In this document: positions 27,044-30,469 of the stretch, one piece after another
How the letters are laid out: each line of letters starts with the position of its first letter
How positions within the stretch are numbered: position 1 is the first letter of the stretch
Source: a virus
Reading direction: 5' to 3' (one strand)
IMG/VR virus record: IMGVR_UViG_3300048672_000412
Span: 1 to 41,145 of that record
DNA: 41,145 nucleotides
Position numbers and translations under genes: made by a program
The notes under the pieces: generated by a model
Databases searched by the model: none
What the model was told of the DNA's origin: nothing
What the model saw: the letters and a program-made list of their open reading frames with translations, nothing else

Positions 27044-27087
27044 TAAATTACGGTTTAAATTTGAATCGCATTTAAGAGGATAAGAAA

Positions 27088-27262
27088 ATGAGTATTAAAA
27101 AAGGCGACTTTGTAAAGATTAAAAATGATGCTGAAAATGCCAATTTATCAAATAATTGGCATTGCATATGAATTTTGCGGTACATTTGCAGCACTATCAA
27201 ATTATGATACTGTGCCAATCAATGATTTAATTTTGTTCAATCCAAAAGAAGATTTAGACTAA
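27088..27262 (+). pseudogene. Frameshifted 57-aa small protein gene
   Basis: An AGAGGA site precedes ATG, which opens MSIKKGDFVKIKNDAENANL and then stops after 27 codons. From 27149 the +1 frame continues with QIIGIAYEFCGTFAALSNYD and ends in NPKEDLD, with a stop that overlaps the next start (TAATG). The two halves read as one protein interrupted near 27148 by a lost or gained base. It could be a sequencing error, a broken gene, or less likely a +1 recoding site. Confidence 0.6.
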
Positions 27263-27408
27263 TGAAAGGACGTAAAAAGTTAGGTGATACCAGTGAGCGC
27301 GTAGTTCGAGCTCAAATCTGCTTAAAGCCGTCACAGTTGGAATGGTTAAAACAACAAGGCGGCATAAGCTCAACGATTAGTAAATTAGTTACGGAGATAA
27401 TGAAGTGA
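27262..27408 (+). CDS. Ribbon-helix-helix-like small protein
   Basis: A 48-aa basic protein starting MKGRKKLGDTSERVVRAQIC, then LKPSQLEWLKQQGGISSTIS. A short strand followed by two helices fits the ribbon-helix-helix pattern of CopG/Arc-type DNA-binding proteins. The start overlaps the previous stop, and the next gene starts inside its end. Confidence 0.55.
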   Translation: MKGRKKLGDTSERVVRAQICLKPSQLEWLKQQGGISSTISKLVTEIMK

Positions 27409-27575
27409 GTGAAATTACAATAGATAAGATTTACAACATAAAATTAACCGAAAATGAATTGTTTATGCTGGCTTATTACATTCATAATAACAACGGTTAT
27501 TGCGACAACGAAAAAATAAACAAATTTGTTAAAGAGTTAGCAAGCGACATTGATGTAGCTAGATGTAAAGTTTAA
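27405..27575 (+). CDS. Hypothetical 56-aa protein
   Basis: A 56-aa protein with GTG start overlapping the previous stop (GTGA). It is helical and charged, with NELFMLAYYIHNNNGY in the middle. No family is recognised. It is the last gene of the three-gene plus-strand cassette and is followed by a strong terminator. Confidence 0.5.
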   Translation: MSEITIDKIYNIKLTENELFMLAYYIHNNNGYCDNEKINKFVKELASDIDVARCKV

Positions 27576-27580
27576 ACCTA

Positions 27581-27606
27581 AGCCGCCCCACAAAGGCGGC
27601 TTTTTT
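27581..27606 (+). terminator. Terminator of the plus-strand cassette
   Basis: AGCCGCC/GGCGGCT arms enclose a 7-nt loop and are followed by six T on the plus strand. It keeps cassette transcription from running antisense into the MuF gene. Confidence 0.88.
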
Positions 27607-29590
27607 ATTTCTCAATTTTCTTTAATTGTTCAAGCGTGTATTGCTTTCCGCTATCATCAACGAATCTGTCAAGCGTTGTGCCATTCCTAAACATTTCACC
27701 GCGTGCTTTTCCTAAAACTTCATCTTGAAATTCTGGTGATTTTTTAGACAACCATGTTTGATAGGTTTCAGTTTCTGGAATTTGACCGTCAAGGCTGGAG
27801 CGTGTCCCTGCCGTTGGTTCTTTTAAACCTAATTCTTTCCATGACTTCAAAACCGCTGTAACTACTGAGCGACAATTATGTGTTATAATGTTGTTTGCAG
27901 TAAATACATTATCATCACAACCAAGATTATAAACATGACCAGAAAAACTTGTGAAACCAAGCTCAACAACGCTCTCAAAATGCTCAACAACGGGCTTAAT
28001 GCGGTCGAAATCAGCAATAAACTCAATATCGGAACTTCTATTATTTACAGGCTCGCTAAACAGAACGGCATCAATACTAAGCGCATCAATATCAGTGATA
28101 GCATCGATGTTAATGCTGTTTTGGAGTTGTTCAATAAAGGCATTGGCGTTGGTGGCATCGCTAAACATTTCGGCGTATCTGATTCCGCTATCAAAACAGT
28201 TTTCAGAAAAAACGGCATCGCCACACGCAACCGTTCTGAGCAACAACAAGCCAGAATGGACAATACAAGCCCTGAGCAAATCAAATTGCTTACCAGTAAA
28301 GCTAACGCCGCAATGCGTGGTAGAGAAGTGCCGCATGATATGCTTGTTAAACAAGCGGCTGGTAGATTCAGAAATCAAAGTGCTTTGAGTTCGTATCTTG
28401 AAGAAACTTTTGACGTATTGATGCGCGATAAAGGGTATGAAGGAATCCGCCAATTTCAAATCGATAAGTACAACGCTGATTTCGTTTTCGGTAACGTCGT
28501 TGTGGAAATCTTCGGTGGTTGTTGGCACTGGACAGGCACACATCTTGCCCATTCTAAGGATAGAATTAAAACTATTCTCGATGCTGGATTCCATTTGATT
28601 ATCGTTGCCGCTAGAAATGAAGGTGTTTCTTTTGAAACCGCACGCGAGGTTGTCACCCTTATTCAAGAATTTAGCTTGAATGAATCCTCTATCCGTCATT
28701 ATCGGATGATTCGGAGTAACGGTGAGAATGTTATCACCAGAACTTCTAATGACGATGACTTGACCATTGAATGGGCGTTTAGAAATGTAAGAAACACTAC
28801 CACTGGGCGTTACATGAGTGTCAGGTAGCACACATCTAAAATGCAATGGAGGGCGCGGATAAGCTGTAAGCGGATAAACTTGACCATCTTTAGCGCGGCA
28901 TATCGGCGTGGTTCTCATATCCAATGTAGCTACAAATTGAACCGATTTAACCAAATCATCATTCGCCTTGTAAAACTCATCACGCGCGGCATTAGTTGAA
29001 TGTGCAACAGCCGTTAATACTAATGCCTGCGTTTTGGTTCTATTCAAGTGCATAACGCCATCGCTATATTGCAATGCTTTCGTTCCAATTATGCGCCGTG
29101 TAATATCACTATAGCTTGTGCCTTCTATCAAGCCCATTCTAACCGCCGATTGAATTGAATTAAACGATTCGGTATCGAGTTTATCAATCCACTCTTTGAG
29201 CAATTTACCCTGAAAAGGCGTGTCTTCGATTGCTGCAAATAACGTCACAGGTGCAGCCATGACTAAATTTAACTCAATAGGAATAGCGTTTGTTATGGTT
29301 TTATGTTGCCATTCTTGTTCATAAACAGCCGCGTCTTTCATTTCCTGCAACAAGTCGCGCCCCATTAAGTCGTAGCCTTCATTTAAAACCGTGCGTATTG
29401 ATTCTAGTTGTTTATCGACTTGCTTAATAGTTGTATTGCTATCAATATCAAGCGTTTTTAGCTTCAACACTAAATCTTTCTCAACCGTTCGCAATAAATC
29501 CATCACTTTTTTGGTTGTATTGGAGTAATACCGATTTAATAGTATTTCATGTGCAATGGTTTTATCGCGTAATAATTCATTGGATGTCAT
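27605..29590 (-). CDS. MuF-like head morphogenesis protein with intein
   Basis: A 661-aa precursor. Residues 1-252 and 573-661 form a 341-aa MuF/SPP1 gp7-like minor head protein, with VATLDMRTTPICRAKDGQVY and the conserved PPLHFR-CRSVV site. Residues 253-572 are an intein inserted between HFR and CRS, the most conserved motif of the family. Splicing should restore HFRCRS. MuF proteins associate with the portal and help DNA packaging or ejection. The gene lies downstream of the portal but is separated from it by the plus-strand Rha-P63C cassette. It is overlapped antisense by the endonuclease ORF within the intein. Confidence 0.88.
   Translation of the reverse strand: MTSNELLRDKTIAHEILLNRYYSNTTKKVMDLLRTVEKDLVLKLKTLDIDSNTTIKQVDKQLESIRTVLNEGYDLMGRDLLQEMKDAAVYEQEWQHKTITNAIPIELNLVMAAPVTLFAAIEDTPFQGKLLKEWIDKLDTESFNSIQSAVRMGLIEGTSYSDITRRIIGTKALQYSDGVMHLNRTKTQALVLTAVAHSTNAARDEFYKANDDLVKSVQFVATLDMRTTPICRAKDGQVYPLTAYPRPPLHFRCVLPDTHVTPSGSVSYISKRPFNGQVIVIRSSGDNILTVTPNHPIMTDRGFIQAKFLNKGDNLACGFKRNTFISSGNDNQMESSIENSFNSILRMGKMCACPVPTTTEDFHNDVTENEISVVLIDLKLADSFIPFIAHQYVKSFFKIRTQSTLISESTSRLFNKHIMRHFSTTHCGVSFTGKQFDLLRACIVHSGLLLLRTVACGDAVFSENCFDSGIRYAEMFSDATNANAFIEQLQNSINIDAITDIDALSIDAVLFSEPVNNRSSDIEFIADFDRIKPVVEHFESVVELGFTSFSGHVYNLGCDDNVFTANNIITHNCRSVVTAVLKSWKELGLKEPTAGTRSSLDGQIPETETYQTWLSKKSPEFQDEVLGKARGEMFRNGTTLDRFVDDSGKQYTLEQLKKIEK
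27881..27889 (+). promoter_or_regulatory. Extended -10 promoter of the antisense endonuclease
   Basis: TGTTATAAT matches the extended -10 consensus. Read on the other strand, it encodes Ile-Ile-Thr of the intein's conserved ANNIITHN motif. No good -35 is seen. The proposed start ATG lies 45 nt downstream. Confidence 0.6.
27935..28828 (+). CDS. Vsr-like (EDxHD) homing endonuclease, antisense within the intein
   Basis: A 297-aa protein encoded opposite the intein, in exact codon register. Residues 10-45 and 60-95 are two helix-turn-helix units (NAVEISNKLNIGTSIIYRLA; GVGGIAKHFGVSDSAIKTVF). Residues 150-240 form a Vsr-like PD-(D/E)XK nuclease: LEETF (E156/157), YNADFVF (D182), VVVEIFGGCWHW (H198), then D209 and the LDAGFHLIIV strand. 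This fits the EDxHD homing endonuclease class known from introns and split inteins. An in-frame ATG at 27878 would add 19 residues, but it lies on the -10 box, so the ATG at 27935 is preferred. Expression would also yield RNA antisense to the MuF message. Confidence 0.85.
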   Translation: MTRKTCETKLNNALKMLNNGLNAVEISNKLNIGTSIIYRLAKQNGINTKRINISDSIDVNAVLELFNKGIGVGGIAKHFGVSDSAIKTVFRKNGIATRNRSEQQQARMDNTSPEQIKLLTSKANAAMRGREVPHDMLVKQAAGRFRNQSALSSYLEETFDVLMRDKGYEGIRQFQIDKYNADFVFGNVVVEIFGGCWHWTGTHLAHSKDRIKTILDAGFHLIIVAARNEGVSFETAREVVTLIQEFSLNESSIRHYRMIRSNGENVITRTSNDDDLTIEWAFRNVRNTTTGRYMSVR

Positions 29591-29764: not shown

Positions 29765-30469
29765 ATGCAAGATTTAATTTTAAGAGATTCAAAAGGCGAA
29801 TTGGTTGTAACTAGCTTAACAATTGCCGATGTTTTTGGAAGACCACACGATGCTGTTTTAAAAAGCATTGATAAAGTAAATAAGCAACTTGTTGATTTTG
29901 CTGGAGAAGTTAAAATTAACTTTTTGAAAGGAAAGTGCGCTAAAGGTATTTCAAACACTCGCACAGCGTATTTAAACGAGCGTCAATTCTTAATGGTGAT
30001 GCCTTTTGTTGGCGGTGAAAAAGCATTGCAAGGGCAGATAAAGCTTGTTGATGAATTTATGCGTTTACGCGCAGCAACAAAAACACTTGAACAACAACGC
30101 CGCGAATTATTACTTGATGCTCCAGATGCGTGGGTAAAATTGTTTGATGAAACGTTTTACACGGCAATCATGCTTTTGCACAATGATACTTTTACGACAA
30201 ATTCAAAAACGCCGATGTATTGCGCTAATATCACTTATCGCCACATTTACAGCGTTGTTTTGGGTCATGAATTGTTGCGCGAATTAAAAGACCGCAAACA
30301 CAGTGAAAAATTGCACCAGTGGTTTAAAGATGGTGGACGTTTAGAGCTTGCAAAACAAATTGAACGAGTAACAATGATTGCGAGAATGTGTGTTAATCGC
30401 AGCGAATTTGAATCTAAATGCGCGATTATGTTTTACGGTAAGCCGCTTCAATTAACTGCTTTTAACTAA
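29765..30469 (+). CDS. Rha-family protein with P63C-like C-terminal domain
   Basis: A 234-aa regulator. Residues 1-95 are a Rha domain: the LTIADVFGRPHDAVLKSIDK helix-turn-helix segment, then TAYLNERQFLMVMPFVGG and the KLVDEFMRLRA helix. Residues 118-225 resemble a P63C domain: WVKLFDETFYTAIMLL, YRHIYSVVLGHELLRELKDR, HQWFKDGG. Such genes are phage antirepressor-like regulators; this role is inferred. The gene lies in a plus-strand cassette inside the minus-strand late operon, behind RNA copy C, and a small hairpin follows its stop as in the other Rha cassette. Confidence 0.8.
   Translation: MQDLILRDSKGELVVTSLTIADVFGRPHDAVLKSIDKVNKQLVDFAGEVKINFLKGKCAKGISNTRTAYLNERQFLMVMPFVGGEKALQGQIKLVDEFMRLRAATKTLEQQRRELLLDAPDAWVKLFDETFYTAIMLLHNDTFTTNSKTPMYCANITYRHIYSVVLGHELLRELKDRKHSEKLHQWFKDGGRLELAKQIERVTMIARMCVNRSEFESKCAIMFYGKPLQLTAFN

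Follow-up and report, generated by a model that had tools for sequence, protein, structure and literature searches.

Can an intein carry its homing endonuclease as a separate gene on the opposite DNA strand? Inteins are the textbook case of in-frame nested endonucleases, and the question is raised by a phage locus in the IMG/VR record IMGVR_UViG_3300048672_000412, of which positions 1-41,145 (41,145 nucleotides; hereafter the window) are considered here. A first-pass annotation of this DNA had proposed that one and the same segment encodes an intein of a MuF gene on the minus strand and an endonuclease on the plus strand.

A MuF gene interrupted by an intein

The MuF gene and a 320-codon intein with all its splicing residues, as originally proposed, are both confirmed:

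27605-29590, minus strand: MuF-like minor capsid (head morphogenesis) gene with intein (PF04233 Phage_Mu_F, 4.7e-9; Intein_splicing PF14890; phrog_241 head morphogenesis, 7e-111)
28835-29590, minus strand: N-extein of MuF
27875-28834, minus strand: intein, 320 codons, from Cys1 to His319-Asn320, then Cys+1 (invariant residues in homologues; AF2 model matches inteins)
27605-27874, minus strand: C-extein of MuF

Cys1 occupies 28832-28834 and Asn320 27875-27877, with Cys+1 following directly. The class-1-type splicing residues C1, T40, N42 and H43 (block B), H319 and N320 are invariant in 38 homologues, and Cys+1 is present. The AF2 model matches the Mtu RecA intein (2imz) and other inteins of the Hint fold, and the intein profile matches 2jmz (8.6e-10). 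Only the first ~105 residues, a short loop excepted, and residues 275-320 are modelled with confidence, and these are the parts that match intein structures; pLDDT exceeds 90 in 275-320 and drops below 50 at residues 154-226 and 241-266. Between the splicing blocks the intein's own frame holds no endonuclease: this middle part is unconstrained and disordered in the sense frame, and the nuclease is found antisense to it.

Between the MuF and portal genes, and in the opposite orientation, the window carries a Rha/P63C-type phage regulatory gene (Phage_pRha, P63C; 29765-30469, plus strand). A strong terminator-like hairpin with a T-run (27580-27602) is located immediately 3' of the MuF stop, on the 5' side of the antisense nuclease, and would shield this nuclease from plus-strand read-through out of the small ORFs at 27060-27575. 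It should be noted that in PHROG 15127 and in many GenBank jerseyvirus records inteins are not marked in the head-protein models or CDS products, so that spliced and unspliced MuF lengths are mixed. The name NAD+-asparagine ADP-ribosyltransferase, borne by several MuF records, was set aside, as it describes the host protein and not the element.

An antisense gene in exact register

The plus-strand gene and its parts are as follows:

27935-28828, plus strand: antisense homing-endonuclease-like gene, 297 aa plus TAG (Met1 invariant in 38 homologues; AF2 pLDDT 91)
27935-28069, plus strand: helix-turn-helix unit 1, residues 1-45 (VIA-align to gamma-delta resolvase 1gdt and paired domain 1pdn, Z 6.5-6.6)
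28091-28228, plus strand: helix-turn-helix unit 2, residues 53-98 (Pfam HTH_7, 4e-6)
28382-28744, plus strand: predicted Vsr/EDxHD-like nuclease domain, residues 150-270 (fold match, PF18741, invariant residues)
28400, 28478, 28505, 28526 and 28562, plus strand: conserved nuclease residues E156, D182, E191, H198 and R210, respectively

The plus-strand frame had been described as open nearly from edge to edge of the intein and as its codon-for-codon reverse complement. The frame indeed has no stop from 27878 to the TAG at 28826-28828 (316 codons), and the register is exact, each nuclease codon being the reverse complement of an intein codon. The start could be refined: 27878, which gives the longest ORF, was rejected because in many homologues stop codons interrupt the stretch from the intein edge to block F, whereas the Met in block F never varies in the main alignment, and the true start is probably the ATG at 27935. 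The gene covers the whole intein, splicing blocks included, and not the linker alone. If the intein protein is taken as fixed and its codons follow the usage of the gene's own exteins, codons 4-300 would be free of antisense stops with a probability of 1.1e-11, and 50 divergent homologues contain a single antisense stop (442 expected) and no sense stop (313 expected). This confirms that the antisense ORF is real and not due to chance.

A predicted Vsr-like nuclease with two DNA-binding units

The AF2 model of the nuclease, built from a 38-row alignment, has a mean pLDDT of 91. Residues 151-269 match Vsr (1cw0; Z 11.7, 111 residues, 2.3 A) and residues 153-248 the homing endonuclease I-Bth0305I (3r3p; Z 10.3, 93 residues, 2.5 A), the latter also being the best Foldseek match. 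A direct PDB sequence search with the single nuclease gave no match; the alignment profile did match 3r3p (0.007-0.019) and 3hrl (9e-5), and PF18741 MTES_1575 (Vsr-like) was recognised in 21 of the 38 members. Over residues 9-98, the helix-turn-helix region, the profile matches the CRISPR-repeat-binding protein 2lvs (1.3e-7).

In the 38-member alignment, D182 and E191 are invariant and E156 is present in at least 90%, while H198 is found in most members, a few having Ser instead. At the position of D182, the deposited 3r3p sequence carries Ala. The final D of the EDxHD signature is not conserved near residue 209, the site taken as equivalent (K/E/D in alignment A3). Of the initial description of this protein as a Vsr-like EDxHD endonuclease with two helix-turn-helix units, the Vsr fold and the DNA-binding units are supported by profile, fold and selection, and a Vsr-like nuclease fold is predicted with high confidence; in view of the unconserved last acidic residue we do not claim strict EDxHD membership.

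Purifying selection acts on both frames

Selection was assessed on 50 inteins less than 60% identical by fixing one protein, shuffling synonymous codons within each sequence and scoring conservation of the other frame, the alignment always being that of the fixed frame. As the sequences are related, the resulting z-scores are not probabilities, and extein controls provide the scale of residual shared ancestry. With the sense protein fixed, antisense conservation reached a z of 151 over the intein and was above 10 in every 15-column window except the last, compared to 2.4 and 3.4 in the extein controls. With the antisense protein fixed, sense conservation gave a z of 93 overall but was confined to the splicing regions: sense constraint beyond expectation was seen only in approximately the first 125 columns (blocks A, N2 and B and the EDFHGD motif) and the last 45 (blocks F and G), with z around 0 between columns 135 and 270 (largest 2.8). 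The element thereby divides into three zones:

28460-28834: double-coding zone 1, intein residues 1 to ~125; minus strand, blocks A, N2, B and EDFHGD; plus strand, end of the nuclease domain and C-terminal region
28025-28447: nuclease-only zone, intein residues ~130-270, the minus frame merely open (sense z ~0, low intein pLDDT, close-pair differences)
27875-28012: double-coding zone 2, intein residues 275-320; minus strand, blocks F and G; plus strand, promoter, RBS and nuclease start (intein pLDDT >90)

Per window, zone 1 shows sense beyond antisense constraint with z of 6.5-46 (to about column 120) and antisense beyond sense constraint with z of 10-45; in zone 2 the sense z is 44 in the last columns. 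The structure model and the selection test agree on the zone boundary.

Differences between close relatives (15 disjoint pairs) follow the same division. Sense position 1 is the wobble position of the nuclease, and differences fall on sense positions 1/2/3 as 57/13/30% in the middle, 44/15/41% in the N-terminal zone and 36/12/52% in the C-terminal zone, compared to 25/17/59% in the exteins. Change per codon amounts to 0.47-0.59 in the intein vs 0.89 in the exteins, i.e. about half to two thirds.

The homologue comparison that the first-pass annotation had called for accordingly finds both frames selected (synonymous randomisation, stop counts and close pairs): purifying selection acts on both overlapping frames, and the middle of the intein belongs to the nuclease alone. 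The suggestion that the linker codes for the endonuclease on the other strand is thus upheld in that the linker is essentially nuclease-only, and needs correction in that the gene also spans the splicing blocks, where selection on the two frames overlaps. Chance openness and pure mirror conservation were both ruled out by the randomisation, the stop counts, the close-pair differences and the 1.1e-11 probability.

Putative expression signals lie in splicing-motif codons

Three short elements of the plus strand coincide with codons of the intein:

27881-27889, plus strand: extended -10 promoter element TGTTATAAT, reverse complement of the block G codons ATT ATA ACA (Ile-Ile-Thr) (sequence and family statistics)
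27923-27926, plus strand: weak Shine-Dalgarno-like AAGA shortly 5' of the ATG; on the minus strand these bases belong to codons at the 'NL' end of GHVYNL
28826-28828, plus strand: nuclease stop TAG, complement of intein codon 3 (CTA, Leu) (sequence)

Across the family, the -10 element reads TGTTATAAT or TGTTACAAT on the plus strand, six bases inside the intein edge, where the block G codons specify Ile-Ile/Val-Thr. The best -10 match falls at the identical offset in 36 of 50 representatives, and the -10 score lies above that of synonymous randomisation (z 15.6), a score of 8.5 being reached by 29 representatives, whereas 6.3 were expected and none of 500 trials exceeded 14; the codons ATT, ATA/GTA and ACA are enriched 2.4- to 4-fold in block G. 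The element is retained in genomes of 67-68% GC and also where stop codons part it from the nuclease frame, and protein coding therefore does not explain its conservation. One distant clade (Gordonia, Edwardsiella, Klebsiella and Pseudomonas phages) lacks the block G promoter or has it displaced, the -10 of Aaphi23 lying about 15 nt further in. A sigma-70 consensus scan of the window did not list the block G promoter because its -35 is poor, and no -35 is evident.

For translation, the family consensus is GAGG/AAGG, from the codons at the Asn-Leu end of GHVYNL, and a Shine-Dalgarno match of at least 4 nt occurs in 40 of 48 representatives vs 21.6 expected (z 7.4); the Shine-Dalgarno of the source locus itself is weak compared to this consensus. 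The ATG at 27935 is the complement of the codon for block F His300 in GHVYNL, and Met1, invariant in the 38 aligned nucleases, is the complement of this block F His. That His is encoded by CAT, which yields an ATG start, in 41 of 48 dereplicated homologues where 21.3 were expected, and by CAC, giving GTG, in the remainder; in L005 a TAA at the block F start position places the start elsewhere. At the other end, most nuclease genes of the family stop at intein codon 2, rather than at codon 3 as in the source locus, and where codon 2 specifies Leu it is TTA or CTA, an opposite-strand stop, in 26 of 27 homologues (6.0 expected); in the distant clade the stop lies 5-19 codons into the intein. Promoter, RBS, start and stop are conserved beyond the requirement of either protein.

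The antisense nuclease is a trait of the intein family

When phage genomes were searched by tblastn, both frames were found at the same places on opposite strands in ~115 phage records, whose hosts include Salmonella, Escherichia, Vibrio, Pantoea, Klebsiella, Edwardsiella, Pseudomonas, Acinetobacter, Haemophilus, Gordonia and others. A scan of viral contigs with the nuclease alignment gave 273 relatives, the best 80 of which were sampled (as for each scan), and a scan of prokaryote genomes added 9 (Rubellimicrobium, Gemmatimonadales, Arcobacter, Firmicutes, Micromonospora, Lamprocystis, Massilioclostridium, Scytonema and a PVC bacterium). The strand opposite the nuclease is an open in-register intein frame in all 110 nuclease-bearing loci examined (samples being the best 80 per scan), and complete inteins could be bounded automatically in 89 of the 110.

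Scanning with the intein alignment, we obtained a further sample of 81 loci, namely the best 80 together with the deaminase-borne L114, and every one has an antisense nuclease (E <1e-40) without an in-gene stop. This sample overlaps the nuclease-based one, with some contigs in common, and because its confirmation relied on a query spanning the full length of the intein, members of the family whose nuclease has been deleted may be too few in it. Inteins of the same length without the antisense frame, which would have refuted the original proposal, were sought and not found, the gene being intact in 81/81. The antisense nuclease is thus a family trait. Apparently degenerate nucleases in L114, L166, L171, L174 and L189 were dismissed, as their stops lie only outside the gene. 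Nucleotide searches of the phage collection with the source-locus element gave no match.

Several variants deserve mention. Members of the distant clade, e.g. L017 (Cronobacter phage ES2), L025 and other Pseudomonas phages, have shorter inteins (269 aa) with the nuclease stop 15 codons inside the edge, and lack the block G promoter. Gordonia phage Nordenberg (L026) carries a MuF intein at the same site without a nuclease match, GHVYNL or the -10 element, possibly an unrelated or nuclease-less occupant of that site. A second, ordinary-looking intein is present in the same MuF frame upstream of the antisense-nuclease intein in L112 (a Scytonema contig) and also in L003. Among the GenBank records listed, only a few (PK1, PK2 and sam) have an unnamed hypothetical ORF under the nuclease match.

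Indirect evidence for mobility

The spliced MuF of Escherichia phage Snoke aligns as one contiguous match, 91-97.5% identical, with the intein-less MuF of fEg-Eco19, phiEc3, K1G and 536P11, and in two pieces with that of the intein-bearing relatives BPS11T2, TS6 and MET_P1. For fEg-Eco19, phiEc3 and K1G, which are uninterrupted at the insertion site, MuF identity is 93-97.5%. The Snoke announcement recognises the intein and mentions an intein-less relative, K1ind2 (PMC6776784). Intein and extein histories are incongruent: L101 is 96-97% identical to L064, L066 and L070 in the extein but only 77-79% in the nuclease, while L100 and L101 share only 58% identity in the extein but 86% in the nuclease.

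Two large viruses carry the same element within a gene for a dCMP/cytidine deaminase with a PCxxC motif, namely Rctr197k (L028, 1593-2999), in which it is annotated as a head morphogenesis protein, and the 177-kb contig L114. The insertion precedes a cysteine of the zinc-binding motif, as it does in MuF, and the deaminase-borne element keeps the RBS, a GTG start and, in the corresponding position, a -10-like sequence (TGTTATGGT/TGCTATGAT). Scans with the deaminase-borne nuclease for further host genes yielded one more locus only. The near-identical intein-less MuF genes, the incongruence and the deaminase host indicate mobility, albeit by comparison of sequences alone; cleavage and homing are inferred.

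Discussion

We consider it very likely that the element is a mobile, self-contained and bidirectionally coding homing intein, the homing endonuclease of which is a separate gene, in register on the opposite strand and nearly end to end with it, although experimental data on splicing, transcription, cleavage and homing are lacking. Judging from its motifs, the intein would splice itself out of the MuF precursor when this is made late in infection, and by self-splicing it would leave the phage its head protein. The conserved sequence elements suggest that the nuclease may be transcribed from the extended -10 in block G and translated from the Shine-Dalgarno and ATG in block F, and with internal signals of its own, its expression would be independent of late structural-gene transcription. 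By analogy to its fold and family, the two helix-turn-helix units could bind an intein-less MuF allele and the Vsr/EDxHD-type domain cut it; intein-less alleles of co-infecting phages would be cleaved and the break repaired from the intein-bearing copy, with transcription timing, cleavage and repair all inferred. A conceivable benefit of the layout is that homing need not wait for structural-gene expression.

Could the antisense ORF instead be a by-product of intein composition and codon use, with a conservation that merely mirrors that of the intein? In-register antisense frames do inherit sense conservation, and the GC-rich, nuclease-less control L026 also has a long open antisense stretch, but composition would not yield an antisense z of 151 with the sense protein fixed when exteins give 2.4-3.4. 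Moreover, the mirror is reversed in the middle, where sense constraint is nil, and the antisense protein is modelled at pLDDT 91 with a Vsr fold against a disordered intein middle; we find this explanation hardly credible. Only slightly more credit can be given to an intein that is no longer spliced, with MuF functioning despite the insert and the nuclease gene alone being of consequence. The literature searched contained no splicing assay for this intein family; still, the splicing residues are all invariant in 38 homologues, strong sense selection is seen in the Hint halves but not in the middle, and intein-less MuF alleles exist without any of the insert.

A more serious contender, albeit in our judgement an improbable one, is a genuine Vsr-fold DNA-binding nuclease that serves the phage, e.g. 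by exclusion of intein-less competitors or in repair, and not intein homing. In the homing cycle, an endonuclease is expected to decay once it has become fixed. The cycle is treated in the abstract of PMC1654191. Contrary to this expectation, the nuclease is almost never degenerate in our samples; a cut in a competitor lacking the intein would, in addition, keep that competitor out. A role in the service of the phage is, however, difficult to reconcile with a nuclease that is found only inside an intein whose insertion site is conserved, is sporadically present between near-identical phages, moves between divergent exteins and occurs in an unrelated host gene. Homing thus remains our preferred reading. 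For the family at large, we think it probable that these are autonomous two-strand elements, with an intein on one strand and a complete nuclease transcription unit on the other, whose signals reside in the codons of blocks G, F and A, such that splicing motifs and signals have co-evolved and expression for homing does not rely on the gene invaded, across phages of many bacterial phyla.

EDxHD enzymes are also found between the halves of split inteins. Known EDxHD/Vsr-like enzymes (I-Bth0305I and the 'fractured gene' split-intein loci) share with the MuF-intein nuclease the catalytic fold, tethered DNA-binding modules, a phage setting and the association with splicing elements; as far as the sources at hand extend, they are free-standing or intron-borne, whereas the MuF family has its enzyme antisense inside a contiguous intein and lacks conservation of the last signature acid. 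The EDxHD work of Dassa 2009 and Taylor 2011 was accessible only through citations in PMC10448857, PMC3943268 and PMC12350094, and the available portions of these three make no mention of an antisense site inside a contiguous intein. Conventional homing inteins of the PI-SceI type (LAGLIDADG; PMC3943268) likewise combine a protein-splicing element, a conserved host-gene site, a homing endonuclease and sporadic distribution, but their endonuclease lies in-frame between the splicing blocks as part of the precursor, in contrast to the separate antisense gene of the MuF family, which overlaps the blocks and apparently has its own signals. As in the case of I-DsqI of the Didymium nuclear rDNA group I introns (PMC9548176), a homing gene runs antisense to a self-splicing element and needs its own transcription; I-DsqI, however, is a His-Cys box enzyme inserted in the peripheral P9.2 of an RNA intron and is not described as double-coding over the catalytic core.

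The MuF inteins of Guernseyvirinae, i.e. those of Snoke (L011; PMC6776784) and the Salmonella UPWr phages (H69; PMC8425127), are members of the same family, and the antisense nuclease goes unmentioned in the parts of both reports available to us. The first-pass annotation knew of no described antisense-nested case, and our search of the open-access literature found no antisense intein endonuclease either; the founding EDxHD papers (Dassa 2009, Taylor 2011) fell outside its scope, and an earlier mention there is not excluded.

The element places two unrelated folds on one DNA segment of 0.8-1.2 kb, both measurably selected and with the splicing domain itself double-coding, and is among the cleanest natural systems for the study of in-register antisense overlapping genes. 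It accounts for a conservation of the intein 'linker' that would otherwise be mysterious, and offers a possible route by which an intein in a late structural gene could make its nuclease at another time. A nuclease gene has been overlooked in many sequenced Salmonella, Escherichia, Vibrio, Klebsiella, Pseudomonas and Gordonia phages. If active, these enzymes would constitute new site-specific nucleases, and pairs of intein-bearing and intein-less phages make homing directly testable.
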